Shown here: positions 9,605-27,028 of the stretch, piece after piece | How the letters are laid out: each line of letters starts with the position of its first letter | Numbering within the stretch: the first letter of the stretch is position 1 | Virus record (IMG/VR): IMGVR_UViG_3300026292_000004 | Location: 1 to 64,000 of that record | Length of the DNA stretch: 64,000 bases | Direction: 5' to 3' (one strand) | From: a virus | Made by a program: the position numbers and the translations under genes | Notes under the pieces: generated by a model | Seen by the model: the letters and a program-made list of their open reading frames with translations, nothing else | Databases searched by the model: none | Told to the model about the DNA's origin: nothing

Positions 9605-11260
9605 TCAGCGATACTCCCACATATAAGCACGATCTCCGTATTCATCAGTGTGCCAAACATCTCCATCCGCATCTACAAATGTTTCATCCGCACTCCCATC
9701 ATCTATAAATCCGAATGGTGCCATGTCCTGTTCTATATTTTCTTTCTGGTCATCATAAATTCTTTGACGGACATCATTGTCATTCATCTCTCTGAAATAT
9801 GGTTGTAATGCCAACCATGCAAATATCACCAAAGTCATTGCCAGGTCATCGTTGCAACCATCTTCTGCTTCAAATGACTTACCCTTTTGAATGAATGTAG
9901 TAAGTTCTGAAATTATGTCATAGTCTGCTATTAGGAGTTTATCTTCTTCTATCAATGCTTTTAGATTAGAACATCCTACCTGTTTAACAGTGGTGCTCAT
10001 CTTAACTCCCATCTGAGTTTTATTACCTGAGAATCCCTGACCAACAACTTGACCTGCTCTACCTCTCATGGATGCCATAAGAAGATTATCATATTCCAAA
10101 TCAAAATGTATGATGTCAGCAACCTGTCCACCCACATCATTAATCTCTACTAAAACAAATGCATGATTATAGTTAGCAGCAGTTTGTACTATGATGTTAG
10201 GAAATAATAGAGGTTTTATAGTATTGTTTCTATACTTGGCAACCAGTTTATATGGGAACGTAGTAGTATCTACAACTGTGAATGCAGAATAGTCATGAGA
10301 CACACCTCTGGCCACATCAACTGCTATGACATACTGATGATCTTTAATTGCTTCTTCATATATGTCTAGTCCCGCATTAGATGTTATTGCTTCATCGTAT
10401 GCTAATACTTTTAATTTAGATGGAGCTATAAGAGTATCAACAGATCCTAAGAATTCACATTCAAACTCAACTTTGAACTGTTGTTCTGATGTGTTCCTAA
10501 TTGTCTGCTCTCTCCATGCAGCATCTCTACCAGGTATCTCCGACCAATGCACTTCAGTATTTACATACTCATTTTTACCACGTTCTGAATCGTGCCACAA
10601 CTTGTAGAACATATTCATACCATGTGGTGTGGATATGATTATAACTTTAGTTTTCTTACCAGATGAAATGGTAGGATATACAGAGGAGAAGAACTCATCT
10701 GCGATATGAGTTGGAACGAACGCGAACTCATCTAGGAATATAACGTTAAATGACATACCACGAACAGCACTACTAGATGTAGATGCTGCCATGATCTTAG
10801 AACCATTCTCTAATTCTAGACTACCTCGGTTCCAGTTTACGACCCCTTGCTGGAGCCATTTCGGTAAGTGTTCGTACGATTTTTGTAACCTCCCCAACAT
10901 TTCCCGCGACGTTGCCGCTTTGTTGGCGAGGATCGCGACGTTAACCTCTTCATTAAATAATACGTACCATAGAAGGTAACTCGTAACAATAGTGGACTTC
11001 CCAGATTGCCTGGGTAGTTTTGCAATGTTGAATCTGTGCTCATGAAATTTATTCACCATCTCCTCTTGAAAAGGATACATGTTAAAAGGTACAAGACCCT
11101 CATCAAGAGAAACAATTTGAACATACTCACGAATGAAGTATGCAGGGTTGCCAGCACATTTTAAAAATTCAGCAACCTGTTCTTTGGTAAAATTCTGAGC
11201 GACATTAGATCGCTTCAGATTGGGATTACCTAAGTAAATATCATTTGGGGCGGTTGCCAT
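9605..11260 (-). CDS. 17: Terminase large subunit gp17
   Basis: 551 residues; the ATPase/nuclease motor that packages DNA through the gp20 portal. The ATPase domain has the Walker A motif LPRQSGKST (about residues 82-90), Walker B VIFLDEFAF (about 173-181) and the coupling motif IISTP (about 208-212). The C-terminal RNase-H-like nuclease shows its acidic residues in VIAVDVARG (about 311-319), LVEINDVGG (about 378) and NDDLAM (about 480). No intron or frameshift is seen. The ATG overlaps the stop codon of the upstream 2OG oxygenase gene (TAATG), so the two are translationally coupled. Confidence 0.97.
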   Translation of the reverse strand: MATAPNDIYLGNPNLKRSNVAQNFTKEQVAEFLKCAGNPAYFIREYVQIVSLDEGLVPFNMYPFQEEMVNKFHEHRFNIAKLPRQSGKSTIVTSYLLWYVLFNEEVNVAILANKAATSREMLGRLQKSYEHLPKWLQQGVVNWNRGSLELENGSKIMAASTSSSAVRGMSFNVIFLDEFAFVPTHIADEFFSSVYPTISSGKKTKVIIISTPHGMNMFYKLWHDSERGKNEYVNTEVHWSEIPGRDAAWREQTIRNTSEQQFKVEFECEFLGSVDTLIAPSKLKVLAYDEAITSNAGLDIYEEAIKDHQYVIAVDVARGVSHDYSAFTVVDTTTFPYKLVAKYRNNTIKPLLFPNIIVQTAANYNHAFVLVEINDVGGQVADIIHFDLEYDNLLMASMRGRAGQVVGQGFSGNKTQMGVKMSTTVKQVGCSNLKALIEEDKLLIADYDIISELTTFIQKGKSFEAEDGCNDDLAMTLVIFAWLALQPYFREMNDNDVRQRIYDDQKENIEQDMAPFGFIDDGSADETFVDADGDVWHTDEYGDRAYMWEYR

Positions 11261-11859
11261 TAGCTTAAAGGATAAGGTCTTTCGTTTGGTAGTTCTTGTT
11301 CAGCATGTGCAAGCATATCTTCTTCTTGCCCAGGAGTGAACTGAAATACTGCACTGAATCTTGCTACACCACCGTGCTGACGGTTAGGAGCTTTACCTCC
11401 ATGTGGTATTGATCCAGGAAAAATTACTACTCTACCAGGTTTGGGTACTACACAATCAGTAACCTCACCATCTCTAACAAATACTGTTTCTCCACCCCAA
11501 GATTCGCACCACTCGGTAAGTGGATATACCATGAAACTTAATGAGTCTTCAGACTCACCGTCATGGTGTAGATTAGGAGAATCTCCAAATCTGAAACAAT
11601 TATATACTACTCTATGAAAAGGAGGGACTGGTATACCAGATCTCTCTTGAAATGCTTGTGCACAAAATACATCAAACTCTCCAAAGTTAGGTTGGTCTAT
11701 AACCTTACCTAAAGAATATGTATTTAAACTTTGTGATGGATCGTCAAAAATCAATTGCCATCCATCAAAGTGAATGAAGTATTCCTCCATCTGTTCCACT
11801 TCACGCTTGGTGAACAGGTCATCTATAATCATGACCTGCTCTCGCTTCATAATTTGCAT
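11260..11859 (-). CDS. 2OG-Fe(II) oxygenase
   Basis: 199 residues with the full facial triad: H98-x-D100 in NLHHDGES, distal His in SIPHGG (H153), and the 2-oxoglutarate-binding Arg in ARFSAVF (R167). The length is normal for a phage prolyl-4-hydroxylase-like enzyme. Such enzymes hydroxylate proteins, nucleic acids or small molecules using O2 and 2-oxoglutarate. They are very common in cyanomyoviruses, where substrates are unknown and influence over host 2-oxoglutarate (nitrogen/carbon signalling) has been proposed. It is directly coupled to gp17 through a TAATG overlap, so it is made with the late packaging genes. That leaves a structural-protein substrate possible, but this is inference. 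Confidence 0.9.
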   Translation of the reverse strand: MQIMKREQVMIIDDLFTKREVEQMEEYFIHFDGWQLIFDDPSQSLNTYSLGKVIDQPNFGEFDVFCAQAFQERSGIPVPPFHRVVYNCFRFGDSPNLHHDGESEDSLSFMVYPLTEWCESWGGETVFVRDGEVTDCVVPKPGRVVIFPGSIPHGGKAPNRQHGGVARFSAVFQFTPGQEEDMLAHAEQELPNERPYPLS

Positions 11860-11864
11860 TGGAA

Positions 11865-12056
11865 TTACTTCTTAAGTTTCTTACAACCAAACTTAAGTAT
11901 AGCACCTGCTGCTACTACACCTACTACTATTCCTATACCAACTCCCCAACCGATACCTTGTGGTTCTGGTTCAATAAGTTCCTGTAAGGCAGGTACTTCC
12001 TGAATCATCTGTTGTGCTTCTTTTGGTAAGGGAAGATCTTTAAATGCGCTTTCCAT
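11865..12056 (-). CDS. Small single-span membrane protein, unknown function
   Basis: 63 residues. The acidic N-terminal 30 residues are followed by one hydrophobic Gly/Val/Ile-rich segment (about residues 35-55) and a basic tail (KFGCKKLKK), so the C-terminus probably faces the cytoplasm. The gene starts 2 bases after the thermonuclease stop codon and ends 5 bases before the oxygenase ATG, so it is clearly part of the operon. The glycine-rich span could suggest a holin-like or envelope-interacting peptide, but nothing in the sequence proves this. Confidence 0.7.
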   Translation of the reverse strand: MESAFKDLPLPKEAQQMIQEVPALQELIEPEPQGIGWGVGIGIVVGVVAAGAILKFGCKKLKK

Positions 12057-12058
12057 TG

Positions 12059-12523
12059 TTAGGACTCAATTAGTGTACCGTGAGCACGACGTATCTCACG
12101 TAATGATTCAAAGTCTTTCTGCTTGGTTCCACCATCGTAGGCCCATGCATAACCTTCATCAATCATTTTTTCGTTAAGGGACAATTGTTCATCCCCAATA
12201 TATAGCCACCCAAGAAGCCTGCCATACTTCCCAACGCCGCCGTGAAGCTCAGTACGAACAATGAGCTCATCATCGCCAGCCAAAACATCTTCCAGTTTTT
12301 CTTTGAGCCAGTTTGTTGCATGAATCCCCAGTTCCTTTTCTTCTAGGTCTCGCGTACGTTTCTCTGGTGTATCTACTCCAGCTACTCTGACACGTTCTTT
12401 TTTAAATAAGTCAAATCCAAGATCAATGGTGACATCTATAGTGTCTCCGTCAAGGACTTTATCAACTGTTACTACTCGGAAGTTGTAACAACTCTTCCGA
12501 CTTGGCGGAACCATCGCTCCCAT
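12059..12523 (-). CDS. Thermonuclease (SNase)-like nuclease
   Basis: 154 residues of the staphylococcal nuclease fold. Catalytic positions are all present: Asp25/Asp27 in VLDGDTID, Arg46 and Asp51/Glu54 in RVAGVDTPE, and Arg102 in KYGRLLG, with the same spacing as the S. aureus enzyme (R35, D40, E43, R87). It should be a Ca-dependent phosphodiesterase acting on DNA or RNA. No signal peptide is evident, so it probably acts in the cytoplasm, for example in host nucleic acid breakdown or in DNA processing near packaging. The N-terminal 15 residues overlap the preceding small frame; a later start is possible. It sits 2 bases from the next gene. Confidence 0.88.
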   Translation of the reverse strand: MGAMVPPSRKSCYNFRVVTVDKVLDGDTIDVTIDLGFDLFKKERVRVAGVDTPEKRTRDLEEKELGIHATNWLKEKLEDVLAGDDELIVRTELHGGVGKYGRLLGWLYIGDEQLSLNEKMIDEGYAWAYDGGTKQKDFESLREIRRAHGTLIES

Positions 12524-12698
12524 ATTCTAACTCCATTAGTGATCTATTTATCATATCTTCAATTGGCTCTCTTTCCTTCTCCTGCTTCCACTGCTTGAGT
12601 TTATTTACTATACTTTCAAGCTGATAAAATTCTCTGGCAGACTCACTCGGTATGGGAGTCGTTGCTATCAGAGATGTCATTAGGAGTGTGGGTATCAT
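12462..12698 (-). CDS. Small possible exported or membrane-anchored protein, unknown
   Basis: 78 residues: a short hydrophobic N-terminus (MIPTLLMTSLIATTPIP) followed by a charged, probably helical region and an acidic/Ser-rich end. It overlaps both neighbours (about 56 bases with the gene before, about 62 with the thermonuclease) and lacks a good ribosome binding site. I therefore treat it as probable rather than certain. An exact TATAAATA octamer lies 58 bases upstream. If it is real, the N-terminus could be a signal sequence or a membrane anchor. Confidence 0.5.
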   Translation of the reverse strand: MIPTLLMTSLIATTPIPSESAREFYQLESIVNKLKQWKQEKEREPIEDMINRSLMELEYGSDGSAKSEELLQLPSSNS

Positions 12699-12783
12699 AA
12701 GTAAAGATCCAATATATTAGATACCCTACTCCACCGAGTAACGTACCTAGCATAATATTTATAGACCAAATAACATCATTCAT
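12643..12783 (-). CDS. Small membrane protein coupled to ferredoxin
   Basis: 46 residues from ATG 12783 ([13 protein letters not shown]). One hydrophobic span covers roughly residues 5-28 and is followed by an acidic Asp/Ser/His tail. The frame is open further upstream, but the start is fixed by the TAATG overlap with the ferredoxin stop codon and by the AGAGGAGAA sequence just before it. Translation is thus coupled to ferredoxin, and a membrane partner of the electron-transfer genes is conceivable. There is no family match I can name. Confidence 0.68.
   Translation of the reverse strand: MNDVIWSINIMLGTLLGGVGYLIYWIFTYDTHTPNDISDSNDSHTE
12756..12763 (-). promoter_or_regulatory. T4-type late promoter inside the small membrane protein gene
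   Basis: Exact TATAAATA on the minus strand. It lies in coding sequence, so it may be chance, but it would give late transcription of the thermonuclease, 2OG oxygenase and gp17 block downstream of petF. Confidence 0.45.
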
Positions 12784-13073
12784 TAATAGAGATTCTCCTC
12801 TTGTTCTGTTAATAGTGTTAGATCTGATGTTGGTAAAGCAACACATGTTAGGACATAACCTTCTTCAAGTTGGTCATCATCCAGAAAGGATTGCTCCTCT
12901 TGGTCTACTGTACCTGACTCAATTTTCATAGCACATGATGAACATGCACCTGCACGACATGATGAAGGATGATCTAGACCTGCTTCTTCTAAACCCTCTA
13001 GTATACTAGTTTCTTCACCACATTCAAATGATTCTGTGGTTCCGTCAGGTGCTTTAAGAGTTATAGTAGCCAT
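12783..13073 (-). CDS. petF: Plant-type 2Fe-2S ferredoxin
   Basis: 96 residues, the normal length for cyanobacterial ferredoxin. All four cluster ligands are present: C39, C44 and C47 in CRAGACSSC and C77 in VLTCVALP, nearly the same numbering as host PetF. It accepts electrons from photosystem I and donates them to ferredoxin-dependent enzymes such as FNR, bilin reductases, nitrogen assimilation enzymes or ribonucleotide reduction. Phage-encoded PetF is known in cyanomyoviruses. The acidic surface (rich in Glu/Asp in the C-terminal half) is typical for this carrier. It shares an operon with plastocyanin, one small gene apart. A weak late octamer (AATAAATA) lies 21 bases upstream. Confidence 0.95.
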
Positions 13074-13093
13074 AATTATTTTACAAGGCCATG

Positions 13094-13101
13094 TATTTAT
13101 T
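13094..13101 (-). promoter_or_regulatory. Late-promoter-like octamer AATAAATA upstream of petF
   Basis: AATAAATA on the minus strand in the short gap before petF, 21 bases from the ATG. One mismatch to the late consensus. Confidence 0.35.
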
Positions 13102-13102
13102 A

Positions 13103-13366
13103 CTACAGCGGAGGGTACTCAGATTCAATGTCAACTTCCACATCAATATGAGGATCAAATTGTTTTGCTAACCTCTCTACTTGTTTTCTATCAAGACCTG
13201 CAAGTGCTCTAGAATTATCTAAACACTTGTAAATACATTCTCTATCAGAAATGGGTGGCTTCTTTGGCCACCCTTGATGATCTACTTCACCTCCAGCACT
13301 TGCTTCTAAATGAGAAAGGTCTTGTTTCTCAGAGGGGTTAGTATAATTATGTGTTTCAGGAGACAT
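13103..13366 (-). CDS. Hypothetical protein between petE and petF
   Basis: 87 residues, hydrophilic, with no signal peptide or membrane span. The N-terminal half is Ser/Glu/His-rich and probably disordered. Residues about 42-65 ([18 protein letters not shown]) look helical with two Cys (C-x3-C). The end is acidic and Pro-rich. It overlaps the 3' end of petE by about 10 bases and so is translated in the electron-carrier operon. I do not recognise a family. The coding region contains a 7-base-pair inverted repeat (13253-13273) over the GWPKKPP codons. Confidence 0.7.
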
Positions 13367-13736
13367 GTACTACGCCTTTCATACCAGCACCAGCATGAGG
13401 TTCACATTGAAACTCATAATCTCCTGCTTTGTCAAAAGTAACTGGAATCTGTTCACCACTCATAAATGCTAAATCAGGATGTGATATCTCTGGATTGTCT
13501 AGGAATACTATATTATGAGGTGGTAGATCTCCATTAAGAAAGGTGACCGTATCTCCTACTGAGACCGTCACCTCGTTTGGTTCAAAGACTAAGTTACCTC
13601 CTGCACCCATTTGTATAGTTTCAGCAGCATATGCTTGTGCTGCTAGTGTCATGGATAGGAATAATGCAGATACCATTAAGGTTAATCTGCTCATCCACCA
13701 CATGATTTCATGTTTGTGTTTAGTAATAGTAGTCAT
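13356..13736 (-). CDS. petE: Plastocyanin
   Basis: 126-residue precursor. A basic N-terminus and a hydrophobic core (about residues 14-36) end in an AQAYA/AE signal peptidase site, so the mature protein of about 89 residues goes to the thylakoid lumen. The type-1 copper ligands are all visible: H74 in LPPHN, then C111, H114 and M119 in CEPHAGAGM. It carries electrons from cytochrome b6f to photosystem I. Phage petE is a known cyanophage auxiliary gene, thought to support photosynthetic electron flow during infection. The start at 13736 overlaps the previous stop codon by ATGA; an internal ATG (residue 12) directly before the hydrophobic segment is an alternative. Confidence 0.95.
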   Translation of the reverse strand: MTTITKHKHEIMWWMSRLTLMVSALFLSMTLAAQAYAAETIQMGAGGNLVFEPNEVTVSVGDTVTFLNGDLPPHNIVFLDNPEISHPDLAFMSGEQIPVTFDKAGDYEFQCEPHAGAGMKGVVHVS

Positions 13737-13969
13737 GATCTTGTAGCATAGTCAATAAAATGAGGATGCTCCCTTAAATATGGGACATCCTCTTTGCTGT
13801 GTTCTATTGCTTCATATGCGTCAGTCGCATACTCACAAATTTCTAAATGATGCTGTTCCGTATCGTGGTAACCTACGGTGTAATGAGTCAGGGGCATGAT
13901 TGTTTCAATCCCATACTGCATATATTTATCCGACCAATGAGTAGAAATTACTAAGATGTCCTGACTCAA
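13733..13969 (-). CDS. Hypothetical small protein upstream of petE
   Basis: 78 residues, with no signal peptide or membrane span, rich in Tyr, His, Asp and Glu (HWSDKYMQYGIE...; YHDTEQHHLEICEYATDAYEAI). The codon at 13969 is TTG and overlaps the upstream stop codon (TTGA). Translation could also begin at the ATG of residue 17, giving 62 residues. It overlaps petE by 4 bases (ATGA), so it is coupled to it. The fold is probably small alpha/beta; I do not recognise the family. Confidence 0.65.
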   Translation of the reverse strand: MSQDILVISTHWSDKYMQYGIETIMPLTHYTVGYHDTEQHHLEICEYATDAYEAIEHSKEDVPYLREHPHFIDYATRS

Positions 13970-14292
13970 AGACCTGGTACAAATCTCTGATATTTTTGTA
14001 CGTGAGGGATAACATCTCTCTCAACTCTATCAACTATATCATCTATTATATCAACGTCAATATCCATGAAAGGTGGAATGATACCAAGGATTCTCAGGAG
14101 TCCATCTACAAACAATGCTAATACAGTGAACCCTAATATCATGCTAATGATAGTAGCATCACGGTTGTGCTTTGCCATAGAGATGCGATCAATTTCTTGT
14201 GCTTCTTCAACAGCAGCACGAATCATCTGGTCAACTTCTGTCTTGGTATAGAAATCCCCTAGAATGGGTATGTCGTGTCTATCTGGTGTCAT
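13966..14292 (-). CDS. Small membrane protein, first gene of the electron-carrier operon
   Basis: 108 residues. The N-terminal 45 residues are charged and helical (YTKTEVDQMIRAAVEEAQEIDRI). One clear membrane span covers about residues 47-70 (IISMILGFTVLALFVDGLLRIL), followed by an acidic and then basic helical tail. It is the first gene after the near-consensus sigma-70 promoter at 14312-14340, with a leader of only about 13 bases. It precedes petE and petF in the same transcript, with 4-base overlaps between neighbours. A role at the thylakoid or inner membrane with the carriers is possible, but no family is recognised. Confidence 0.75.
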   Translation of the reverse strand: MTPDRHDIPILGDFYTKTEVDQMIRAAVEEAQEIDRISMAKHNRDATIISMILGFTVLALFVDGLLRILGIIPPFMDIDVDIIDDIVDRVERDVIPHVQKYQRFVPGL

Positions 14293-14311
14293 GTTATATC
14301 TATCCGTTCAC

Positions 14312-14340
14312 AGTATACCACAAGGTATAGATGTTGTCAA
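14312..14340 (-). promoter_or_regulatory. Near-consensus sigma-70 (host-type) promoter of the petE/petF cassette
   Basis: On the minus strand TTGACA (14340-14335), a 17-base spacer and TATACT (14317-14312) end 19 bases before the ATG of the 108-residue gene. It lies in the only real gap in this part of the window and is quite unlike the late octamers. An inverted repeat (TATACC, 4-base loop, GGTATA) at 14314-14329 overlaps the -10 element and the spacer and could bind a regulator. Confidence 0.8.
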
Positions 14341-14606
14341 TTCATCTCATGAAGGTGCTTTCCTGATGATGCACGTTTTCCATCGTGCTGATCTTTTTCC
14401 CGTTCAAGATCCTGGATCTTTTGCAGCATCTGCTGTTTCTTTTCAATGTTCTCCAGTTTCTTTTGTAATTCTTTTACTTCGTCGTTAATAGACATGGGTT
14501 CGTTTTTGGTAGAGATCCCCCAACTGAGACCAGCAATCCCTGCCACGATTATAATCAATCGTGCGAATCCAGTGATTGCTAACACCAACATCAATTTTCT
14601 GTTCAT
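14337..14606 (-). CDS. Membrane-anchored coiled-coil protein
   Basis: 89 residues: an N-terminal hydrophobic segment (about residues 5-30, LMLVLAITGFARLIIIVAGI) followed by a strongly charged heptad-like helix (about 40-75, VKELQKKLENIEKKQQML) and a basic/His-rich end. The architecture is reminiscent of spanin- or Rz-like or tail-associated membrane proteins, but with no lipobox or lysis neighbour this is speculation. The -35 of the sigma-70 promoter overlaps its last codons. It follows the basic protein gene by 16 bases. Confidence 0.7.
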   Translation of the reverse strand: MNRKLMLVLAITGFARLIIIVAGIAGLSWGISTKNEPMSINDEVKELQKKLENIEKKQQMLQKIQDLEREKDQHDGKRASSGKHLHEMN

Positions 14607-14622
14607 TATATAGGTGAGTTAT

Positions 14623-15366
14623 CTACTTGTTGTAATGATAACTTGGTTTGTTGGTCTTCTTCGGTAACTTGCCACTACGCACCTTCGTTCCAGATGTTTC
14701 TCCAGAAGATGATGGGTGTTTTCCTGCTTTGGACTTTCCTAATGATATGGACTTACCAGGCTTTTTAGATTCTGTATCGTGCAGTTTTGCTGGTTTGTTC
14801 TTATCTTTTGTAATAACTGATTCTTGGCCATGCTTCCGTCCTAGTCGTCGCATGACTTTACCAAAGCGACGCTTGGACATCTTATCGGGTTTGGAGGTTT
14901 GGTATGATACTTCACGACCTTTTTTACCATCGCCGTACTTGTATTCACCTACACCTTTCTTGTGACCAATGCCTTTCTTTTTGAGATCTTTCTCTAGAGC
15001 GCGGCGTTTCTCACGGTTCTTTTTTTCAGAGTCCCCTCTATCAGCAGAAATATTTCCTGTTACTGAGGTCTTTGATTTATGAAGCATACGAGAGGTTGGG
15101 TTGCCCTCCATAAACTGAGCAAAGGTCTTACCTTCTTTGTTGAGCTTTCGCTTCTCAATTTTCTTTTTCTGCCAAGAGTCAAGTGCGTCTACTGGACGAC
15201 CTCCCTTAGCTAGAACTGATGCTTTATGCTTCTTAAATGCATCAGCGGATTTAGCAGCCTTTGCTTTCTTAGCATCAGAAGATGCTTTTTGTTTTGCAAC
15301 GTTTGCTTTTGATTGACGGTCAATACGTTCAGCAGGAGTTTCCTCCTTAAGATGATCAGTACTCAT
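14623..15366 (-). CDS. Lysine-rich basic protein, unknown, possibly virion-associated
   Basis: 247 residues dominated by Lys, Arg, Ser, Gly and Ala, with very low hydrophobicity. It has runs such as KKAKAAKSADAFKKHKAS and a C-terminal SGKLPKKTNKPSYHYNK tail. This composition suggests nucleic-acid binding or an internal head protein. Two lysine-rich halves flank a short more ordered segment (EGKTFAQFMEGNPTSRM). A GGAGG ribosome binding site 5 bases before the ATG is formed by the last codons of the upstream gene. It lies between gp16 and gp17, within the late block; function unproven. Confidence 0.7.
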   Translation of the reverse strand: MSTDHLKEETPAERIDRQSKANVAKQKASSDAKKAKAAKSADAFKKHKASVLAKGGRPVDALDSWQKKKIEKRKLNKEGKTFAQFMEGNPTSRMLHKSKTSVTGNISADRGDSEKKNREKRRALEKDLKKKGIGHKKGVGEYKYGDGKKGREVSYQTSKPDKMSKRRFGKVMRRLGRKHGQESVITKDKNKPAKLHDTESKKPGKSISLGKSKAGKHPSSSGETSGTKVRSGKLPKKTNKPSYHYNK

Positions 15367-15367
15367 G

Positions 15368-15907
15368 TTAACCTCCTACTACTTGGACTTCTTCAACTAC
15401 AATAGCATTACCTGTTACTACGATCTTAACGCAACGTTTTACTTTTGCTTGACCGCCAGATGCATATGTGTAGTCACCTGATGCTGCTTGTGAATCAATA
15501 TCAGTTGTTATAGTTGCACCAGTAGTAGCAGTAATTTTCTTACCAACTGTACCAGCACTTAAAAAACCAGCATGTATTGCAGGAGCAGTACCATCATCTA
15601 TCACAGCGATGAAGTCATCAACTGAGAATGGATGCGTATCTCGCGACATGTTTTCTTGCAGGTTGTTACCTAATGTATAGACTGCTGTAGCAGCATCGGT
15701 TCCTTTAACTACTTTCGCAGTACCAGGTTTGCCACCTCTCACCAGTAGAGATTCATTATCTATTAAAGTTATAGCAGGTCCGCCATTAAATGATACCGTA
15801 GCATCTCCAGCATTTGCTATGACTCTAAAATAGCCAGTTTGTACAACTTGATATTCAGTAGCACCTGCGGCCACTGCGTTTGTACTTAGAACATTTAGGA
15901 CTGTCAT
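15368..15907 (-). CDS. Probable virion structural protein, beta-rich
   Basis: 179 residues rich in Gly, Ala, Thr and Val with alternating beta pattern. The first 75 residues look like a small beta-sandwich (YQVVQTGYFRVIANAG; VSFNGGPAITLIDNESLLVRGG). A TTGATITTDIDSQAASG linker leads to a C-terminal beta segment ending VVEEVQVVGG. No enzyme motif is present. The position downstream of gp16 and the composition suggest a head decoration or fibre-tip protein, but this is inference. A CATAAATA octamer lies 25 bases upstream. The stop codon region supplies the ribosome binding site of the next gene. Confidence 0.6.
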   Translation of the reverse strand: MTVLNVLSTNAVAAGATEYQVVQTGYFRVIANAGDATVSFNGGPAITLIDNESLLVRGGKPGTAKVVKGTDAATAVYTLGNNLQENMSRDTHPFSVDDFIAVIDDGTAPAIHAGFLSAGTVGKKITATTGATITTDIDSQAASGDYTYASGGQAKVKRCVKIVVTGNAIVVEEVQVVGG

Positions 15908-15920
15908 TGTCGTGTCGTGT

Positions 15921-16340
15921 TTAATCCTTATTATTTATGTTGTTTTGTTGCTTCAATAATTTTTGAAGTTCAGTAGTGCTACCTACAAACATTGCATTTG
16001 TAACATTAGTTGGACCTTTTCTTTCTTCCTTATCAAGTTCTTTCATCTTACCTTGAAGATCAATTAACTTGTCTGCTACATCCCCGACTGACTTAATGAG
16101 TTGACCTGCAACCTCATAAGCACGTGGATGATCGCTTGCTCGTGCCACATCAAGTATACCATCTACTGCCTCCTGCCCTTTCATAACTAAGTTATGTAGT
16201 TGAGCACGAGAAACTTCATAATCCTGTTGTATCTCAGGATTATCTGTTAGTTTAGTTATTTCCTTCTTTTTCTCAACATGCTTTTGTAACTCAGATGGTT
16301 CATTACCAAAGACTTCATTCAACCCATCAAAGGTGCTCAT
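15921..16340 (-). CDS. 16: Terminase small subunit gp16
   Basis: 139 residues; T4 gp16 is 164. The central pattern DYEVSRAQLHNLVMKGQEAV...ARASDHPRAYEVAGQL and the end NAMFVGSTTELQKLL align with T4 gp16 (DYGVVRRNMH..., ADSPRHMEVFATL, NATVFMGSPTELMD). It recognises concatemeric phage DNA and stimulates gp17. It lies directly after gp15 (2 bases apart), the T4 order, but is separated from gp17 by the accessory block of about 4.7 kb. Confidence 0.9.
   Translation of the reverse strand: MSTFDGLNEVFGNEPSELQKHVEKKKEITKLTDNPEIQQDYEVSRAQLHNLVMKGQEAVDGILDVARASDHPRAYEVAGQLIKSVGDVADKLIDLQGKMKELDKEERKGPTNVTNAMFVGSTTELQKLLKQQNNINNKD
15932..15939 (-). promoter_or_regulatory. Late-promoter-like octamer CATAAATA downstream of gp16
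   Basis: CATAAATA on the minus strand, 25 bases before the start of the 179-residue gene and overlapping the end of gp16. Confidence 0.45.
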
Positions 16341-19102: not shown

Positions 19103-22100
19103 TTAAGCGAATGAGGATATAGTCAATGTAGTTACATCGTTAGCAGCAACAGCTTCTCCAACTTTGAAGAATCCATCAACATTATCAACAGTAATTAAAC
19201 TTGTACCCATAGCAGTGATAACTCCAGTAGTACCAGAGGTTGCACCAGTTACGGTTGCACCAACTTCCATCGTTGTGATATCGGATAGTGCGAAGGTAGC
19301 ATGAGTATAGGTAGTTGCGATATCAACCGTTGCGTTAGCAAAGATTGTTGCAACATCAATAGTTGAACTATTACCATGAATAGCAGATACAGGTATCGTT
19401 GCACTGTTACCATGAATTGCAGAAACTGGAATCGTTGCTGCACTACCATGAATAGCACCCACAGTTAGGGTAGCACTGTTACCGTGGATAGCACCAACAG
19501 TAGTTGTTGCATTACCATGAATAGCAGCAACACCAGTAATTGAGTTACCATCTCCAGATCCAGAAATTGTGATCGTGTCAGAAGCAGCATATCCAGTACC
19601 ATCATTATTAATTGCAATACCAACTACGTGTCCAGATCCATTGGTAGTAACGTCAAGAGTCAATCCAGTACCAGAGTTATTAGTAGTTGTAGCAACACCA
19701 GTTATAGTTTGACTAGCAGGGTATCCAGTACCAGCGACCATTATTGAATTAAGAGTCTTAACACCAGATGCATTAGCATTAGTTAATGTGATTGTATCTG
19801 ATGCAGCATAACCAGAACCATCGTTAACGACAGTCATTCCAGTTACTCCACCAGATCCATTAACAGCAACAGTAACTGTTAATCCAGTACCAGAACCTCC
19901 AGAGGTTGTATTAACTGTACCAGCAGAATAACCTGAAGCAGCAGAAACAATAGAACCAAGTGTATTAACACCAGTTGCATTAGCATTGGTGATTGTCAAT
20001 GTATCACCATTAGAATAATTTATACCATCATTATTAACTGCTACAGCAGTTACTCCACCAGATCCATTAGCTGTAATGTCAACAGTTAAACCAGTACCAG
20101 ATCCACCCGTTGTAGTTGCAAGTGCAGAACCAGTAGAGTATCCAGAACCAGCAGCAGTAACAGTACCAAGTGTATTAACACCAGATGCGTTAGCGTTAGC
20201 AATCGTAATTACTTCAGATGCAGCATATCCTGATCCATCGTTGTTAATTGAAACACCGTCAACAACACCGTTAGTAACAGTAACGTTAACAGTTAGACCA
20301 GATCCAGAACCAGATGATGTCGTATTTAGAGCAGTACCTGAACCGTATCCAGTACCACCTGCACTAATTGATCCTAGAGTTTTAACTCCAGATGCATTAG
20401 CGTTAGTGATTGTTAAGACTTCAGAGTTAGCATAACCAGAACCATCATCATTGATAGTTACTCCAGTTACAGAACCTGAACCATCAACTGTAATGTCAGC
20501 AGTAAATCCTGTACCAGATCCAGATGCAGTTGTTGCAATTGCAGATCCAGCAGCATAACCTGTTCCAGCAGTTGCTATAGAACCAAGAGTTCTAACACCT
20601 GTTGCATTGGCATTGACAATAGTGATTGTATCATCTACTGCGTAACCAGTACCAGCAGCGTTAATAGCAGCGTTAGTTACAACACCATTAGATGTTGTGA
20701 GGTTTAGAGTTAATCCTGATCCACCACCTCCAGTAGTTGCAATAGCAGTACCGTTTGCGTATCCTGTACCACCAACAAGAGTATCAATAGTAGAAGCACC
20801 ACCAGCGTTAGCATTAACTATAGTGATCGTCTCTCCGTTTGCATATCCTGTACCAGCAGCATTAACTGAAAGGTTGGTGATGTTACCATTTCCATCAACG
20901 GTAGTGTCAAAGGTTAATGCAGATCCACTTCCACCAGTTGTAGAAACGTTAGTACCAGAAGTGAATCCACCAACTCCACCTGATAATGTACCCAAGTTCA
21001 AGGTAGAAACACCACCAAGGTTAGGGTTAGTAATTTGTAAACTATCTCCGATTAAGTATCCTGTACCAGCACCATTTACAGCAATGGCAGTTATAGCACC
21101 AGCAGCACTTACTGTAGTATCAACTGTCAATCCAGTTCCAGTTCCACCAGATGTGGCAACTGCGGATCCAGCAGTGAATCCACCAAGACCACTAGCAGTA
21201 ATTGATCCAAGACTTACAACAGTTCCTGGTGTAGGATCTCCAGATAAGTTAAGTGTTAATGTTGTTGCAGTAGCAAGGTTATTCAACATAGCACTAAGTT
21301 GTGCATATGCGTTGTCAAGTTTTGCTTGAACTCTTGCTTCTGTATAGTAAAGATTAGTTCCTTCAGAAAGATCAGCAGTATCATGGTTGCTGAGGTTTGC
21401 TGCTTGAGTAGCAGTTGCAGGAGTGATGTCAGCAGTACCATTAAAGGCAGTACCACCAATATTTCTTGGAGTTGCTAGAGCAGTAGCAGTAGCAGCATTT
21501 CCAGAGGTGTCCTGATTACCCGCTGCGTTAACGCCTGGAAGGTTAATTGCAGCAGTACCGTCAAATGATACCCCACCAATGTTTCTTGCCGTTGCAAGGG
21601 CAGTAGCGGTGTCTGCGTTACCTGTCACATTACCAGTGACATTACCAGTAAGAGCACCAGTTATAGTTCCACCTGCTTCAATATCATCCGTCCAGATCTT
21701 ACTCCATCTGTGAGTAGTAGTTCCTAAAGTATAAGAACTATCTGTATCAGGTCTAACATTCTTAGAATCAGTAGTTGTAGCAAGAAGATTACCAGTAACG
21801 TTACCAGTAACAGCTCCAGTTAGTGATGCTGTAATAACACCAGCAGCAAAGTTACCAGATGCGTCACGAATGACTAGGTTGTTTGCTGAGTTAGCAGAGT
21901 TAGATGTAATTGTAATACTTGGATTACCAGCAACACCACCACCGTTTGAAATACCAATACCACCACCAGATACCTGAATAGTACGTTGAGCATATGTGTT
22001 AGCAGCTGTACGGGCAACCAGACCTGTTCCACTCATTCCTGCCAAAGCAGTAATATCTGCGTCATTAAAGGTAGTAGTAACAGTAAAGTCTGCACTACCA

Positions 22101-25100
22101 TTTACAGAAACCGTACCATCTACTACACCATCAATGGTGAGAGTTCTAGCAGTTTTCCAAATATCAGCAGAAGTTGCGTTACCCTGAATACCAGCAGAAG
22201 CACCAGCACCACTTTCAACAGTGATGATGTGAGCAGAGAAGTCTCCAGAAGAGTCACGAGCAACAACTGTAGAGTTTGTAGCAGCAGTTGCAGTTGTCAT
22301 TCCATCTAACAAGTCTGCGTTAAGGTTAGCAATCTTGACTGTATTAGGAATAACTAAAGCAGGTCCAGAAGGAACTTGTGAAATTAATTGTCCGTCAACA
22401 GTAATAGTACCATCAACGTTTACGTTGTTATCTACATCAAGAGCAGTACCAGCACCAGTAATATTAACTGAACCAACCTGTAGAGTACCATCAGTTCCAC
22501 TGAATGTCTCAGCACTATTGGTTGCAGCAGTTAAAAGTCTGAATGTATTAAGGTTGTTATCCCATCCAAAGAATCCAAGTCTTGCTTGAGAATCATAGTA
22601 TCTAAACTCAATACCACGATCTAAACCATCATTAGAAGTAGGAGCAGTAGCACCACCCAAAGTCATTACAGGGTCTTCTACCGTAGTGACAGTACTTTCT
22701 ACTGTGGTAGTAGATCCTAATACGGTGAGGTTTCCACCTACTTGGAAATTATTTCTTACTTCAGCATTACCTGAAGATGTATCTACAAAGAAACTATTCT
22801 GAGTTCCAACAGTATCATATACAACAAAGTCTCCACCAGTATAGAGGTTCTTATTTACTCTCGCACCACCAGTAGTTGTTAATGATACCTGAGCATCACC
22901 ATAGGATGTAATATCCTTAGTATCTGTAATGGTAATCTTACCAGCAAATGCTGCATCATCAGTCTGAGTTAAGGTTCCTGTAGTTTCTAGGTTACCATAA
23001 ATTCTTGCACTACCACCAATAGCAGTGTCTCTAGCAATACCAACACCACCAGTTACTTGTAATGAACCATCAGCAGCATAAGATCCTGTTAAGGTTTGCT
23101 GTGTGTTGTTAGTAACAGATGTAATACCAGTAACACCTAGAGTGTTGTTAATACCAGCAGCAAGAGATACGTCTAGTGTACCTGAAATAGTTGTATTACC
23201 ATTATCTGTGTCAACAGTAAACTTATCTACTGCACCAGCAGTCTGAATCTTGAACATCTTGTTGTCAGACTTGACAATAAGATCATCTTGGATAGTTGTA
23301 GCACCATCTACATTTAAAGTAGTGTCAAAGTCAACTGCATCCTGACCATTCAGTGTACCTTTAATAACTGTATTACCAGTTGAAGATGCAACTGTAAATT
23401 TATCAGTTGTACCTGATCTAACTGCAAAGTTATTATCTACATCTACAGTTCCATTGAACTCTGAATTATTTGTGACTTCTAATGTTCCACCAATAGTTGT
23501 ATTACTATCAACGTTAAGAGTTGAATTTAACTCAGTGTGTCCATCAGCAGTTAGAGTACCCTCAATATTAGTATTACCAGTTACGTTATCAACGAAGAAC
23601 TTATCAGTAGTACCGTTGCGAACTGCAAAATCAGCATCTACATCAACAGTACTGTTAAATTCTGTAGCACCAGTTACAGTTACGTCACCATCTATCTGTA
23701 CATCTCTACCAAGAGTAGTATCACCATGAACTGTGAATGTACCTACAGTTGCTGAACCAGTTGCAGATCTACCAACAGTAGTATTACCAGTTGCACCAAT
23801 TACTTGGAACTCAATATCGTCTCCACTATTCTTCTTACCAATAAAGAGACCTTCACCAGAACCAGTAGCACCAATGAATAGTGAGGTGTTAATACCAGCA
23901 CCACCATAGACCCTTAAGTTAGATGTGTTATGGTTTGAATAACTTGGAGTGTATGCAGAAACAGAACCAGTACGTAGTTTATAACGTATTGATAGGTAGT
24001 TTCTTAGACCGTAGTTTTCAGTTGCGTCTTCTTGCTGGTTAAAGTCACCGTTTAGATATAAGTCACCATTAAAGAGAACGTCTTTATCAAAGTATGCACC
24101 ACCATCTACTCTCAATGCACCGTAGTCAGAAGACCCAATTGTATGTGGAGCACCAGATACAATATTAGGATTGTCTGTAGACTCAAGATAAACCAGACCA
24201 GCTACATTTAAACTAGAAGCAGCATCAATAGCACCAGTCTGAGTTAAGATACCACCAATATCAACATTACCTGTGGTAGTATGAAGTGTAGTCTTAGTAG
24301 TTCCTGAACCATTCTTAAGTTCTAAAGTCTTAGAAGCACCTTGGAATACGATATTATCATCAAATCTACTTGTACCGTGAGTACGGAAGTTAGTATCTAC
24401 ATCTAAAGTACCACCAATATTAACATCATCTCCAATACCAGCACCACCAGCAACTACTAAATCTCCAGTAGTATTTGATGTTGAGTTAGTATTAGTTGTT
24501 AGACTTAAGTTACCAGCGATGATCCCTGCATTTGTTCCAGTGAATACCTCTGAGGTATTTGTGGCATCGTAGAGGAATGTGAACGCTCCTGTATGCCCTC
24601 CAAGATCTGAGGCCGAATCATCGTAACCAAAGAATCCAACTTTTGCGCTTGCGTCGTAATATCTGAATTCAACTCCTCTATCCTTATTGTCGTCTGCCGC
24701 AGGAGCAGTATCACCACCAAGAGTGATAATAGGGTCATCCACTGCAAGAGTGGTAGAATTAACCGTTGTAGTTGTTCCATCTACTTGTAAATTTCCTTGT
24801 ACTACTACCGTTCCAGTGACCGCACGGTCATCACCTGGATCCAAATACATTGTTGCATTGGAAGTAGCAATATAATTTGATTGGAATCTTGAATCTTCTA
24901 TATGAACTTTACCAGTTGCTTCAGTAGCATCAATAGTTACAGTATCTTCTGCTTGAATAACAACACTACTTGTTCCAGCACCAGCATTAAGGGCAACAAG
25001 TGTTAGGTTTCTAGCACTACCACTGTTCTGAGACAGACCAAGAGTGAAGTTTCCATCACCTGTCTTACTTATTGTTTGATTAACTGCACCATCAAATGTT

Positions 25101-26461
25101 ACGTCAGGGTCACTGAAGTAAGATCTGACGTTAATATCAATTTCTCCAGCACCACCGTCACCAGTATTATTAGCACCGAATAGAAGATTCCCTGAAGTAT
25201 CGTTAATTTTAACATAGTTTAAATAATCAAATCCATGATGTGAACCTGCTATTGTTAACTCTTGATCTAGTTCAAAATTCTGTTGTGTATTATTGTCAGA
25301 GAATGATAATCTATTATTCTGAAGTTGAGTATTATCAATACCTTGAGCAGCAATGCTTACATGACCATTATCATCAACATCAAAATCTTCTTGTGCAAAT
25401 GAAGCAAGACCTTTTTGTTCTACCTTAGCAGCAGCAAGATATCTCCATCCATTAGTATCAGATGCATCTGTATGAGTTGGTGCTGCAACTCCAGCAGAAA
25501 TACCTGTAATTGCCTGATAAACCTTTGAAGCGTTCTCAATAATATCGTAACGCACATACGTAGTACCTGCATTGTAAGCAGCATACTTACTACCTTCTAT
25601 TGCAGTAGCAATAGGAATAGTTAATGCGGATGTAAATCTACCCCACTGATCAACTGTAAATTGTGTTGTGTTAACAGTTATATTTGCAGCAGTTGGAAGA
25701 CTATCTCCACCAACCGAAATTAAAGTAGATGGATTGTATACACCAACTTGTGCAATAAATTCTGCCTCTGATGCAATTGATGTATCAATAAGGTCAATCG
25801 TTGGGTTACCTGCAACACCACTACCATTAACAATAGATATCTTTCCAGAGGAACCCTGAAGGGTTCTAGGGATCATATTACCTGCTGATGCCCTAGTAAT
25901 CAAACCTGTTGCAGTCATTCCTGCAATAGATGTTAAGTCAGTATCTAATGGTTGTACGTCAGTTAAACCTAAATCTACATATGAAGAAGGTGAAGCACCT
26001 GTTGTAATTCTACCTTTTGCGTCTACTGTTACCTTTGAATATTGTCCTGTAGATGTTGTAGTACCATCATAATGTGGTAACGAAGTTAAGATCTGTAATT
26101 GTGCCGATATTGATAAGTTAGAAGATCCATCAAATGTGCCCGAACCTGCTAAGTCACTTGATAACTGTATCTGACGTGGGTTTGCTAGTCTAGATGCTGT
26201 AGCAGCATTACCAATAATAGTGGCGGTGATAGATCCTGCACTAAAATTACCATCTGCGTCTCTTGCTACAAGAGTATTTGCTGTGTTAGCAACTGACTCT
26301 ATCGGTCTAGCATATGGCAACGTGTTCCAACCCCTAACACCATCACCAATTTTGAATCGGTTTGTATCAAGTTCAATTCCAAGTTCACCTTGGGCTAACG
26401 TTGGGTTTTCGTTTGCCCACTCTTGAGCACCCCCTCGTCTTAGTTGAATTCTATTAGCCAT
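19103..26461 (-). CDS. Large tail-fibre-like structural protein with tandem repeats
   Basis: 2,452 residues. The first 55 residues (IQLRRGGAQEWANENPTLAQGELGIELDTNRFKIGDG) match the phage fibre N-terminal domain seen in major-tropism-determinant-like proteins. A GSxYxxYxxV...APTHT module (about residues 310-360) is related to the insert in gp18. The middle consists of many beta-repeats of the form GTTDKFxVxxxTGNTxIxGTL. It also has two copies of a D-P-x-x-T-L-G-G ... EFRYYD ... GFFG domain (about 24500-24790 and 22470-22720). The C-terminal third has eight units of about 70 residues, then five AIHGN units, then a TSG module. It is probably a long adhesin or fibre of the tail or baseplate. No chaperone or enzyme motif is seen. 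Confidence 0.85.
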   Translation of the reverse strand: MANRIQLRRGGAQEWANENPTLAQGELGIELDTNRFKIGDGVRGWNTLPYARPIESVANTANTLVARDADGNFSAGSITATIIGNAATASRLANPRQIQLSSDLAGSGTFDGSSNLSISAQLQILTSLPHYDGTTTSTGQYSKVTVDAKGRITTGASPSSYVDLGLTDVQPLDTDLTSIAGMTATGLITRASAGNMIPRTLQGSSGKISIVNGSGVAGNPTIDLIDTSIASEAEFIAQVGVYNPSTLISVGGDSLPTAANITVNTTQFTVDQWGRFTSALTIPIATAIEGSKYAAYNAGTTYVRYDIIENASKVYQAITGISAGVAAPTHTDASDTNGWRYLAAAKVEQKGLASFAQEDFDVDDNGHVSIAAQGIDNTQLQNNRLSFSDNNTQQNFELDQELTIAGSHHGFDYLNYVKINDTSGNLLFGANNTGDGGAGEIDINVRSYFSDPDVTFDGAVNQTISKTGDGNFTLGLSQNSGSARNLTLVALNAGAGTSSVVIQAEDTVTIDATEATGKVHIEDSRFQSNYIATSNATMYLDPGDDRAVTGTVVVQGNLQVDGTTTTVNSTTLAVDDPIITLGGDTAPAADDNKDRGVEFRYYDASAKVGFFGYDDSASDLGGHTGAFTFLYDATNTSEVFTGTNAGIIAGNLSLTTNTNSTSNTTGDLVVAGGAGIGDDVNIGGTLDVDTNFRTHGTSRFDDNIVFQGASKTLELKNGSGTTKTTLHTTTGNVDIGGILTQTGAIDAASSLNVAGLVYLESTDNPNIVSGAPHTIGSSDYGALRVDGGAYFDKDVLFNGDLYLNGDFNQQEDATENYGLRNYLSIRYKLRTGSVSAYTPSYSNHNTSNLRVYGGAGINTSLFIGATGSGEGLFIGKKNSGDDIEFQVIGATGNTTVGRSATGSATVGTFTVHGDTTLGRDVQIDGDVTVTGATEFNSTVDVDADFAVRNGTTDKFFVDNVTGNTNIEGTLTADGHTELNSTLNVDSNTTIGGTLEVTNNSEFNGTVDVDNNFAVRSGTTDKFTVASSTGNTVIKGTLNGQDAVDFDTTLNVDGATTIQDDLIVKSDNKMFKIQTAGAVDKFTVDTDNGNTTISGTLDVSLAAGINNTLGVTGITSVTNNTQQTLTGSYAADGSLQVTGGVGIARDTAIGGSARIYGNLETTGTLTQTDDAAFAGKITITDTKDITSYGDAQVSLTTTGGARVNKNLYTGGDFVVYDTVGTQNSFFVDTSSGNAEVRNNFQVGGNLTVLGSTTTVESTVTTVEDPVMTLGGATAPTSNDGLDRGIEFRYYDSQARLGFFGWDNNLNTFRLLTAATNSAETFSGTDGTLQVGSVNITGAGTALDVDNNVNVDGTITVDGQLISQVPSGPALVIPNTVKIANLNADLLDGMTTATAATNSTVVARDSSGDFSAHIITVESGAGASAGIQGNATSADIWKTARTLTIDGVVDGTVSVNGSADFTVTTTFNDADITALAGMSGTGLVARTAANTYAQRTIQVSGGGIGISNGGGVAGNPSITITSNSANSANNLVIRDASGNFAAGVITASLTGAVTGNVTGNLLATTTDSKNVRPDTDSSYTLGTTTHRWSKIWTDDIEAGGTITGALTGNVTGNVTGNADTATALATARNIGGVSFDGTAAINLPGVNAAGNQDTSGNAATATALATPRNIGGTAFNGTADITPATATQAANLSNHDTADLSEGTNLYYTEARVQAKLDNAYAQLSAMLNNLATATTLTLNLSGDPTPGTVVSLGSITASGLGGFTAGSAVATSGGTGTGLTVDTTVSAAGAITAIAVNGAGTGYLIGDSLQITNPNLGGVSTLNLGTLSGGVGGFTSGTNVSTTGGSGSALTFDTTVDGNGNITNLSVNAAGTGYANGETITIVNANAGGASTIDTLVGGTGYANGTAIATTGGGGSGLTLNLTTSNGVVTNAAINAAGTGYAVDDTITIVNANATGVRTLGSIATAGTGYAAGSAIATTASGSGTGFTADITVDGSGSVTGVTINDDGSGYANSEVLTITNANASGVKTLGSISAGGTGYGSGTALNTTSSGSGSGLTVNVTVTNGVVDGVSINNDGSGYAASEVITIANANASGVNTLGTVTAAGSGYSTGSALATTTGGSGTGLTVDITANGSGGVTAVAVNNDGINYSNGDTLTITNANATGVNTLGSIVSAASGYSAGTVNTTSGGSGTGLTVTVAVNGSGGVTGMTVVNDGSGYAASDTITLTNANASGVKTLNSIMVAGTGYPASQTITGVATTTNNSGTGLTLDVTTNGSGHVVGIAINNDGTGYAASDTITISGSGDGNSITGVAAIHGNATTTVGAIHGNSATLTVGAIHGSAATIPVSAIHGNSATIPVSAIHGNSSTIDVATIFANATVDIATTYTHATFALSDITTMEVGATVTGATSGTTGVITAMGTSLITVDNVDGFFKVGEAVAANDVTTLTISSFA
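19342..19530 (-). repeat. AIHGN 36-base tandem repeat
   Basis: Five consecutive 12-residue units of the form AIHGNSATxxVx in the fibre-like protein, followed by two degenerate units. Each carries one His at a fixed position, so a regular His ladder is expected if they form a beta-helix. Confidence 0.85.
19540..21222 (-). repeat. Eight tandem units of about 70 residues (210 bases) in the fibre-like protein
   Basis: Each unit has GxGYxxGxxxxTTxGGSGTGLTVxxTVxGxGxVTxVxINxDGSGYAxxDTITIxNANAxGVxTLGSI. The units differ at many positions and the array runs in frame. The same Gly-Tyr core recurs in gp8, gp14 and other structural genes in this window. Confidence 0.9.
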
Positions 26462-26778: not shown

Positions 26779-27028
26779 TTTCTTTATTAAGTAGAAGTTT
26801 CAGTAGGTCTTTGACATCGCCTATATCAGATTTTAACCCATCTACGTCAGTTTGTAAAGTAGTAAAATCTTTTTTCTTAGCTTGCCTTGCCTCATATTGT
26901 GCCATGTACTCATCGTACTTGGTCATATTACAATTGACAATTGCATTTGATTCTGGATCACGATACCACCCATCCTGTCCTTCAACAGGAATGAGTTCAT
27001 CGGTAAAGTTAATTTTATTGTCAATCAT
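26759..27028 (-). CDS. Small protein with C-terminal coiled coil
   Basis: 89 residues. The N-terminal half is a compact segment (GWYRDPESNAIVNCNMTKYDEYMAQYEARQ), followed by a C-terminal helix with a regular Leu/Val/Ile spacing (TTLQTDVDGLKSDIGDVKDLLKLLL). The ATG overlaps the stop codon of the 2,484-residue gene (ATGA), so it is coupled to that product and may help fold or cap it. Such small genes are common downstream of large structural genes in cyanomyoviruses, but a function is not known to me. Confidence 0.72.
   Translation of the reverse strand: MIDNKINFTDELIPVEGQDGWYRDPESNAIVNCNMTKYDEYMAQYEARQAKKKDFTTLQTDVDGLKSDIGDVKDLLKLLLNKENDSNSN

Follow-up and report, generated by a model that had tools for sequence, protein, structure and literature searches.

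A candidate host-type promoter at the head of the plastocyanin and ferredoxin island of a T4-like cyanophage

The photosynthesis and carbon genes of phages are believed to fuel infection, which makes it important when they are switched on. Their position can be puzzling: auxiliary genes are found inside the late virion block, an odd place if they are needed before virion assembly. How might such genes be read ahead of their neighbors? We address this question for the electron-carrier genes petE and petF in a window of 64 kb (the whole stretch analysed; GC 38.6%) from a 90.5-kb viral contig of a T4-like cyanophage, whose nearest isolate across the promoter region is Prochlorococcus phage P-SSM7. 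The reading that we favor, and hold to be probable from the sequence features, is that a host-type phage promoter (sigma-70, extended -10) of the orf89-mem108 junction heads the auxiliary island between gp16 and gp17, which would thus have early or middle starts followed by late ones. A conserved host-readable promoter combined with late octamers would be a simple and testable escape from purely late timing.

The promoter-like site and the genes behind it

The minus strand carries, in order, gp14, gp15, gp16, orf179, orf247, orf89, the promoter-like site, mem108, a 54-aa open reading frame (ORF), petE, an 87-aa ORF, petF, a small membrane protein, a small ORF, a nuclease, a small ORF, a 2OG-oxygenase-like ORF, and gp17 (Table 1). 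This succession of gp14, gp15, gp16, petE/petF island, and gp17 places the locus in the cyanomyovirus hyperplastic region (g15-g18). Upstream in the island, orf247 (minus 14623-15366) matches the Pfam family S-AdoMet_lyase (PF23780) at 29.8 bits, barely over the 28-bit cut-off; its PHROGs matches are to unknown families only, the protein is lysine-rich, and the PF23780 match may be compositional. Elsewhere in the window, minus 41581-63714 is a single ORF of 7,377 codons, pieces of which match phrog_701 and phrog_18802 (virion structural proteins), and 2 more ORFs of about 2,450-2,480 codons each span 19103-26461 and 27025-34479.

Read directly, minus-strand positions 14340-14312 are TTGACA-N17-TATACT with an extended -10 (TGG). 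The original prediction, which gave TTGACA, exactly 17 bases, and TATACT, was exact for this strand; its description lacked the TGG, at 14320-14318. The site sits within a 44-nt intergenic gap upstream of mem108, its -35 hexamer overlapping the TGA stop codon of orf89 (14339-14337), and the predicted start would leave mem108 a leader of 11-15 nt. With 11 of 12 hexamer matches, 17-nt spacing, an extended -10, and elements that are kept while the spacer changes (in L092/L004 and in L090 of the sister clade), it falls in the sigma-70 class. The T4-type late octamer NATAAATA is not found at its -10, where 14317-14310 reads TATACTGT. Direct reading likewise reveals no MotA box (TGCTTTA) near -30 in 14312-14340 and no NtcA motif (GTA-N8-TAC) upstream of the -10 around 14312-14360. 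Nor does the site have the form in which an extended -10 is fused to a late octamer (TGNTANAATAAATA); the window holds both elements separately. A second sigma-70-like site, TTGACG-16-TATAGT with TG, lies in the mem108 coding sequence (minus 14060-14033) and is kept in L004/L092.

Table 1. Positions of the promoter elements, genes, and late octamers of the island
Feature	Position	Strand	Remarks
-35 hexamer TTGACA, 6/6	14335..14340	-	identical in L004/L013/L092
Extended -10, TGG-TATACT (hexamer 5/6 + TG)	14312..14320	-	recurs at the orf89-mem108 junction in diverged relatives
Predicted transcription start, ~14305	14303..14307	-	inferred from -10 position
Dyad TATACC-TTGT-GGTATA across spacer and -10	14314..14329		judged incidental
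Hyperplastic island with promoter and cassette	11260..15907	-	gp16 (15921-16340) to gp17 (9605-11260); PMC2984593
orf89, upstream partner of mem108, T4-GC 245 family	14337..14606	-	
mem108, small membrane protein, first gene of unit	13966..14292	-	phrog_7360/1096, T4-GC 246 ('gp7' of cyanophages)
petE leader ORF, 54 aa	13733..13897	-	phrog_8866, T4-GC 224 family
petE, plastocyanin with signal peptide	13356..13736	-	PF00127 2.2e-20; phrog_515
87-aa hypothetical protein	13103..13366	-	phrog_1201
petF, 2Fe-2S ferredoxin, four cysteines	12783..13073	-	PF00111 4.9e-22; phrog_844
Small membrane protein after petF	12643..12783	-	ATG 12783 overlaps petF stop
Late octamer GATAAATA, T4-type	13923..13930	-	25 nt upstream of petE leader
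Late octamer AATAAATA, T4-type	13094..13101	-	20 nt upstream of petF; kept in L092
Late octamer TATAAATA	12756..12763	-	57 nt upstream of next ORF
Late octamer GATAAATA	12545..12552	-	21 nt upstream of nuclease (12059-12523); kept in L092, L174, L175, L180, L200

The genes behind the site are only partly as tightly packed as first described. The petE leader probably starts at ATG 13897, with the longer 78-aa ORF reaching to 13969 being over-extended, since MPLTHYTVGYHD-like starts recur in relatives and phrog_8866, with a length of 54 aa, begins at the same place. This start leaves a 68-nt gap after mem108 that contains the first late octamer, and the 29-nt gap preceding petF is occupied by the second; overlap or coupling of the genes, as had been proposed, thus applies to part of the unit. 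The petE translation holds the cupredoxin copper ligands H, C, H, M, and no counterpart of the 87-aa protein was found in L004.

Late octamers dominate the surroundings. All 12 copies of NATAAATA in the window lie on the coding (minus) strand and 11 of them stand 17-57 nt before a gene start, so the earlier statement that all surrounding promoters are of this type is right outside the cassette; 2 of the 12 lie inside it. Relatives retain these octamers of the petE leader and petF, and a spacing of about 25 nt before the petE leader is similar in many phages. No terminator-like end to the cassette was found in the window; the only minus-strand candidate, at 13273-13253, lies within the 87-aa ORF and has a weak tail. 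The notion that the promoter isolates the cassette is therefore not borne out: the petE leader and petF each have a late octamer upstream, and the genes are not closed off by a terminator.

A probable promoter of the orf89-mem108 pair

The promoter site is identical in L002, L003, L086-L088, and L166. In L004, L013, L092, and L093, with mem108 93-96% identical, both hexamers, the 17-nt spacing, and the TG are kept while several spacer positions differ and the dyad is disrupted; the matching gap of the sister clade (L089-L091) reads TTGAAA-17-TATAAT with TGG. In all lineages compared, including P-SSM7 and P-SSM2, an extended -10 stands 19-30 nt upstream of mem108; the -35 is weaker in L017, L026, L029, L032, and P-SSM7, and some relatives have the extended -10 only, with no good -35. 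A TATAAT-type -10 occurs in the gap of most of 60 distinct orf89-mem108 junctions, for which the automatic count of 52 is a rough figure because it includes some matches inside the mem108 coding sequence. Such a site is absent from most of the remaining mem108 homologues, whose genes belong to other operons.

At a subset of junctions the geometry differs: in 20 of 28 examined (among them L342, L346, L347, L349, L353, L370, L386, and L391), TATAAT follows TTGACA or TTGACG after exactly 7 nt instead of 17, in some cases under long inverted repeats. As a general cyanophage promoter type, TTGACA-N7-TATAAT was discarded: TTGACN8TATAAT occurs just twice in 11 isolate genomes, which makes it a local feature.

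To which genes does the promoter belong? In P-SSM2, the corresponding junction, with TGATATAAT, is about 10 kb away from petE; in L017, junction and -10 are present and petE is absent. From these 2 genomes we assign the promoter to the orf89-mem108 pair and not, as originally proposed, to petE/petF. The strongest rival to our reading goes further, in that the promoter would serve mem108 only, as part of an orf89-promoter-mem108 module, and petE and petF would in practice be late genes read from their own octamers. Besides the same 2 genomes, it is favored by the many junctions (most of the 60) that have a -10 without petE nearby, by the conserved octamers at the petE leader and petF, and by the apparent loss in the window (TGGTCGGATAAATA) of the sigma-70 half of a fused element found at the petE leader of P-SSM2 and P-SSM7 (TGGTATAATAAATA). 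However, mem108 and petE are not separated by a terminator, host-type elements sit right at the petE unit in other petE islands, and the auxiliary genes of P-HM2 are middle, not late (PMC5082946). We regard service to mem108 alone as rather unlikely, and expect petE and petF to be expressed both early or in the middle phase and late, given the late octamers at the petE leader and petF, the absence of a terminator at the end of the cassette, and a promoter tied to orf89-mem108.

Host-type elements across gp16-gp17 islands

Could the hexamers be a chance match in AT-rich phage DNA, with the unit read only from upstream late promoters? The site is the top-scoring sigma-70 match in the window and TTGACA-N17-TATACT occurs once in the whole contig, yet dinucleotide shuffles of the minus strand yield a mean of 0.23 sites of such strength against the 1 observed. 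Moreover, 11 of 12 matches can be fortuitous, as in TTGACT-18-TATAATG at the petE start codon in L174/L180; where such matches fall on petE start codons (L174, L180, L200), we discarded them, as their -10 runs into the ATG. Against chance stand the 44-nt gap, in a span (1242-63714) with a non-coding share of just 1.7% by our own gene list, the conservation of the elements across a diverged spacer, the recurrence at the orf89-mem108 junction, and an enrichment in islands but not in structural genes. We consider a chance match improbable.

The enrichment was measured on islands gathered by orf179, not by promoter; P-SSM7 was added and loci selected by pattern were left out of the counts. With strength scored as hexamer matches, +1 for TG, and a threshold of at least 12, 14 of 25 non-redundant gp16-gp17 islands carry one equally strong site (shuffle control: mean 0.16, maximum 1), and 11 have none of that score. 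No such site occurs in the 108 kb of structural DNA lying upstream, in the 47 kb that begin with gp17, or in antisense orientation. The 14 are not independent: 12 share one ancestral site, and the other 2 (L087 of the window clade and L090 of the sister clade) share one junction, giving about 2 origins, plus weaker P-SSM7-type sites. The comparative evidence thus rests on few ancestral events. In P-SSM7 itself, sites of this class stand directly before gp55, hli03, and nrdC, and none of such score occurs from 46.4 to 122 kb, which includes the structural genes gp13-gp23; the plus strand of S-SM1 has a single TTGACA-type match between 38 and 139 kb, namely the island promoter. The placing of a host-type promoter in the late region is supported by comparison, and its ownership by petE/petF is not supported. 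P-SSM7 also has a strong TTGACA-17-TATAAT at 170724-170752, ahead of T4-GC 285 and ferredoxin (petF) and downstream of psbA, so the nearest isolate likewise has petF close to a host-type promoter.

Host-type promoters also head petE-bearing islands of relatives. A site shared by Synechococcus phages has a -10 that runs into the late octamer, TTGACA-N16-TACAATAAATA; in 21 sequences of it TG, TAC, and ATAAATA are invariant and the remainder nearly so, and the exact pattern occurs in 43 viral contigs. It stands ahead of T4-GC 392, petE, PTOX, gnd, and zwf in S-SM1 and S-SSM5. On the suggested search for the same promoter before petE cassettes of other cyanophages, a host-type promoter is present in these 2 phages, in fused form and before T4-GC 392. 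There are 8 copies of the core TGNTANAATAAATA in 6 genomes, every one on a single strand, against 0 hits for the reversed pattern. They lie at petE islands (S-SM1, S-SSM5, S-CAM22), at talC (P-SSM4, S-SSM5, S-CAM22), at the P-SSM7 homologue of the petE leader, and close to gp32 in P-HM2. One more free base brings some reversed-control matches, so we trust the stricter pattern. Directly upstream of talC (transaldolase), fused elements are seen in S-SSM5 (160065), S-CAM22 (154901), S-SSM4 (145010), and P-SSM4 (166033), and in 3 of the 4 a hairpin that resembles a terminator and has a T run comes immediately before the element.

A fused element also precedes the petE leader in P-SSM2 and in 12 other distinct petE loci. 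The site before the window's petE leader looks like such an element with its -10 half lost, a reading and not a proof. A fused -10 is found at 0 of 5 petE leaders with mem108 close upstream vs 13 of 71 others; these loci are too few, and a move of the sigma-70 half from petE to mem108 was dropped as a proven event. Auxiliary-gene units (petE/PTOX/gnd/zwf, talC, and mem108-petE-petF) may tentatively be seen as sharing a dual sigma-70/late promoter, fused or split, that would give middle timing without MotA. It is a similarly guarded conjecture, taken jointly with the first, that the halves are split in the window clade, with the sigma-70 half one gene upstream at a mobile orf89-mem108 module. 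The differing promoter layouts suggest one outcome reached by several routes.

A repressor of host or phage that binds the dyad over spacer and -10 is the least probable reading, a very slim prospect despite a perfect 6-bp inverted repeat and longer repeats at the same junction in L347, L342, and L391: about 0.09 such repeats are expected per 30-nt span (p = 0.10 vs shuffles), in the closely related L092/L004, whose mem108 is 93% identical, one of the arms is disrupted, the window form is absent from L090 and P-SSM2, and no dyad sequence is common to the relatives. The p-value and the broken arm speak against an operator, and the hint of regulation once drawn from the dyad is not supported.

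Timing and known systems

Cyanomyoviruses are without the T4 systems that change early promoter choice and also without MotA/AsiA. Host sigma-70 is believed to serve their early genes, and overlapping early and late promoters have been proposed for the middle genes of RB49, S-PM2, and Syn9 (PMC2984593). The auxiliary genes of P-HM2 fall exclusively in the middle cluster (PMC5082946). Together, this promoter scheme and these middle genes make an early or middle start at ~14305 plus late octamers the best model for the window. No petE expression timing was found in the literature searched. Doron and colleagues reportedly mapped the transcription start sites of Syn9 in 2016.

The sequence shows the promoter elements and their conservation, the late octamers, and no terminator; promoter activity, timing, and read-through are what we infer, the last assumed to cover the 1.2 kb to petF. 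Early in infection, transcription by the unmodified host RNA polymerase would begin at ~14305 and, meeting no terminator, proceed through mem108 into the petE leader and petE and perhaps as far as petF. A gp55-type late sigma factor would then take over, and the octamers at 13930 and 13101 would restart the petE leader and petE, and petF. The electron carriers would be made from the early or middle through the late phase, despite the location of their genes among late genes.

Several known systems resemble this arrangement. As in the middle-gene promoters of RB49, S-PM2, and Syn9, host-type and late elements would serve one unit with no MotA system; there the elements overlap (PMC2984593), whereas a distance of about 400 bp separates those of the window, which stand at different genes. 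The sigma-70 early promoters of cyanomyoviruses (gp55, hli03, and nrdC in P-SSM7) share the hexamer class, the spacing, and in some cases the extended -10, but the window site lies inside the late virion-gene block. The hyperplastic region g15-g18 of Millard et al. 2009, in the description of PMC2984593, is alike in its location in the virion-gene block, in its auxiliary metabolic genes between gp16 and gp17, and in an endonuclease before gp17; the window phage differs in having petE and petF with mem108, with no PTOX, gnd, or zwf seen in its gp16-gp17 island. Finally, the petE-PTOX-gnd-zwf cassette of S-SM1, S-SSM5, and Syn9 (Sullivan et al. 2010, PMC3037559) likewise places petE in the gp16-gp17 island, headed in S-SM1 and S-SSM5 by a host-type promoter. 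There, upstream of a T4-GC 392 gene, late octamer and sigma-70 -10 form one fused element (TGNTACAATAAATA), whereas the window keeps the two apart and its unit begins with mem108.
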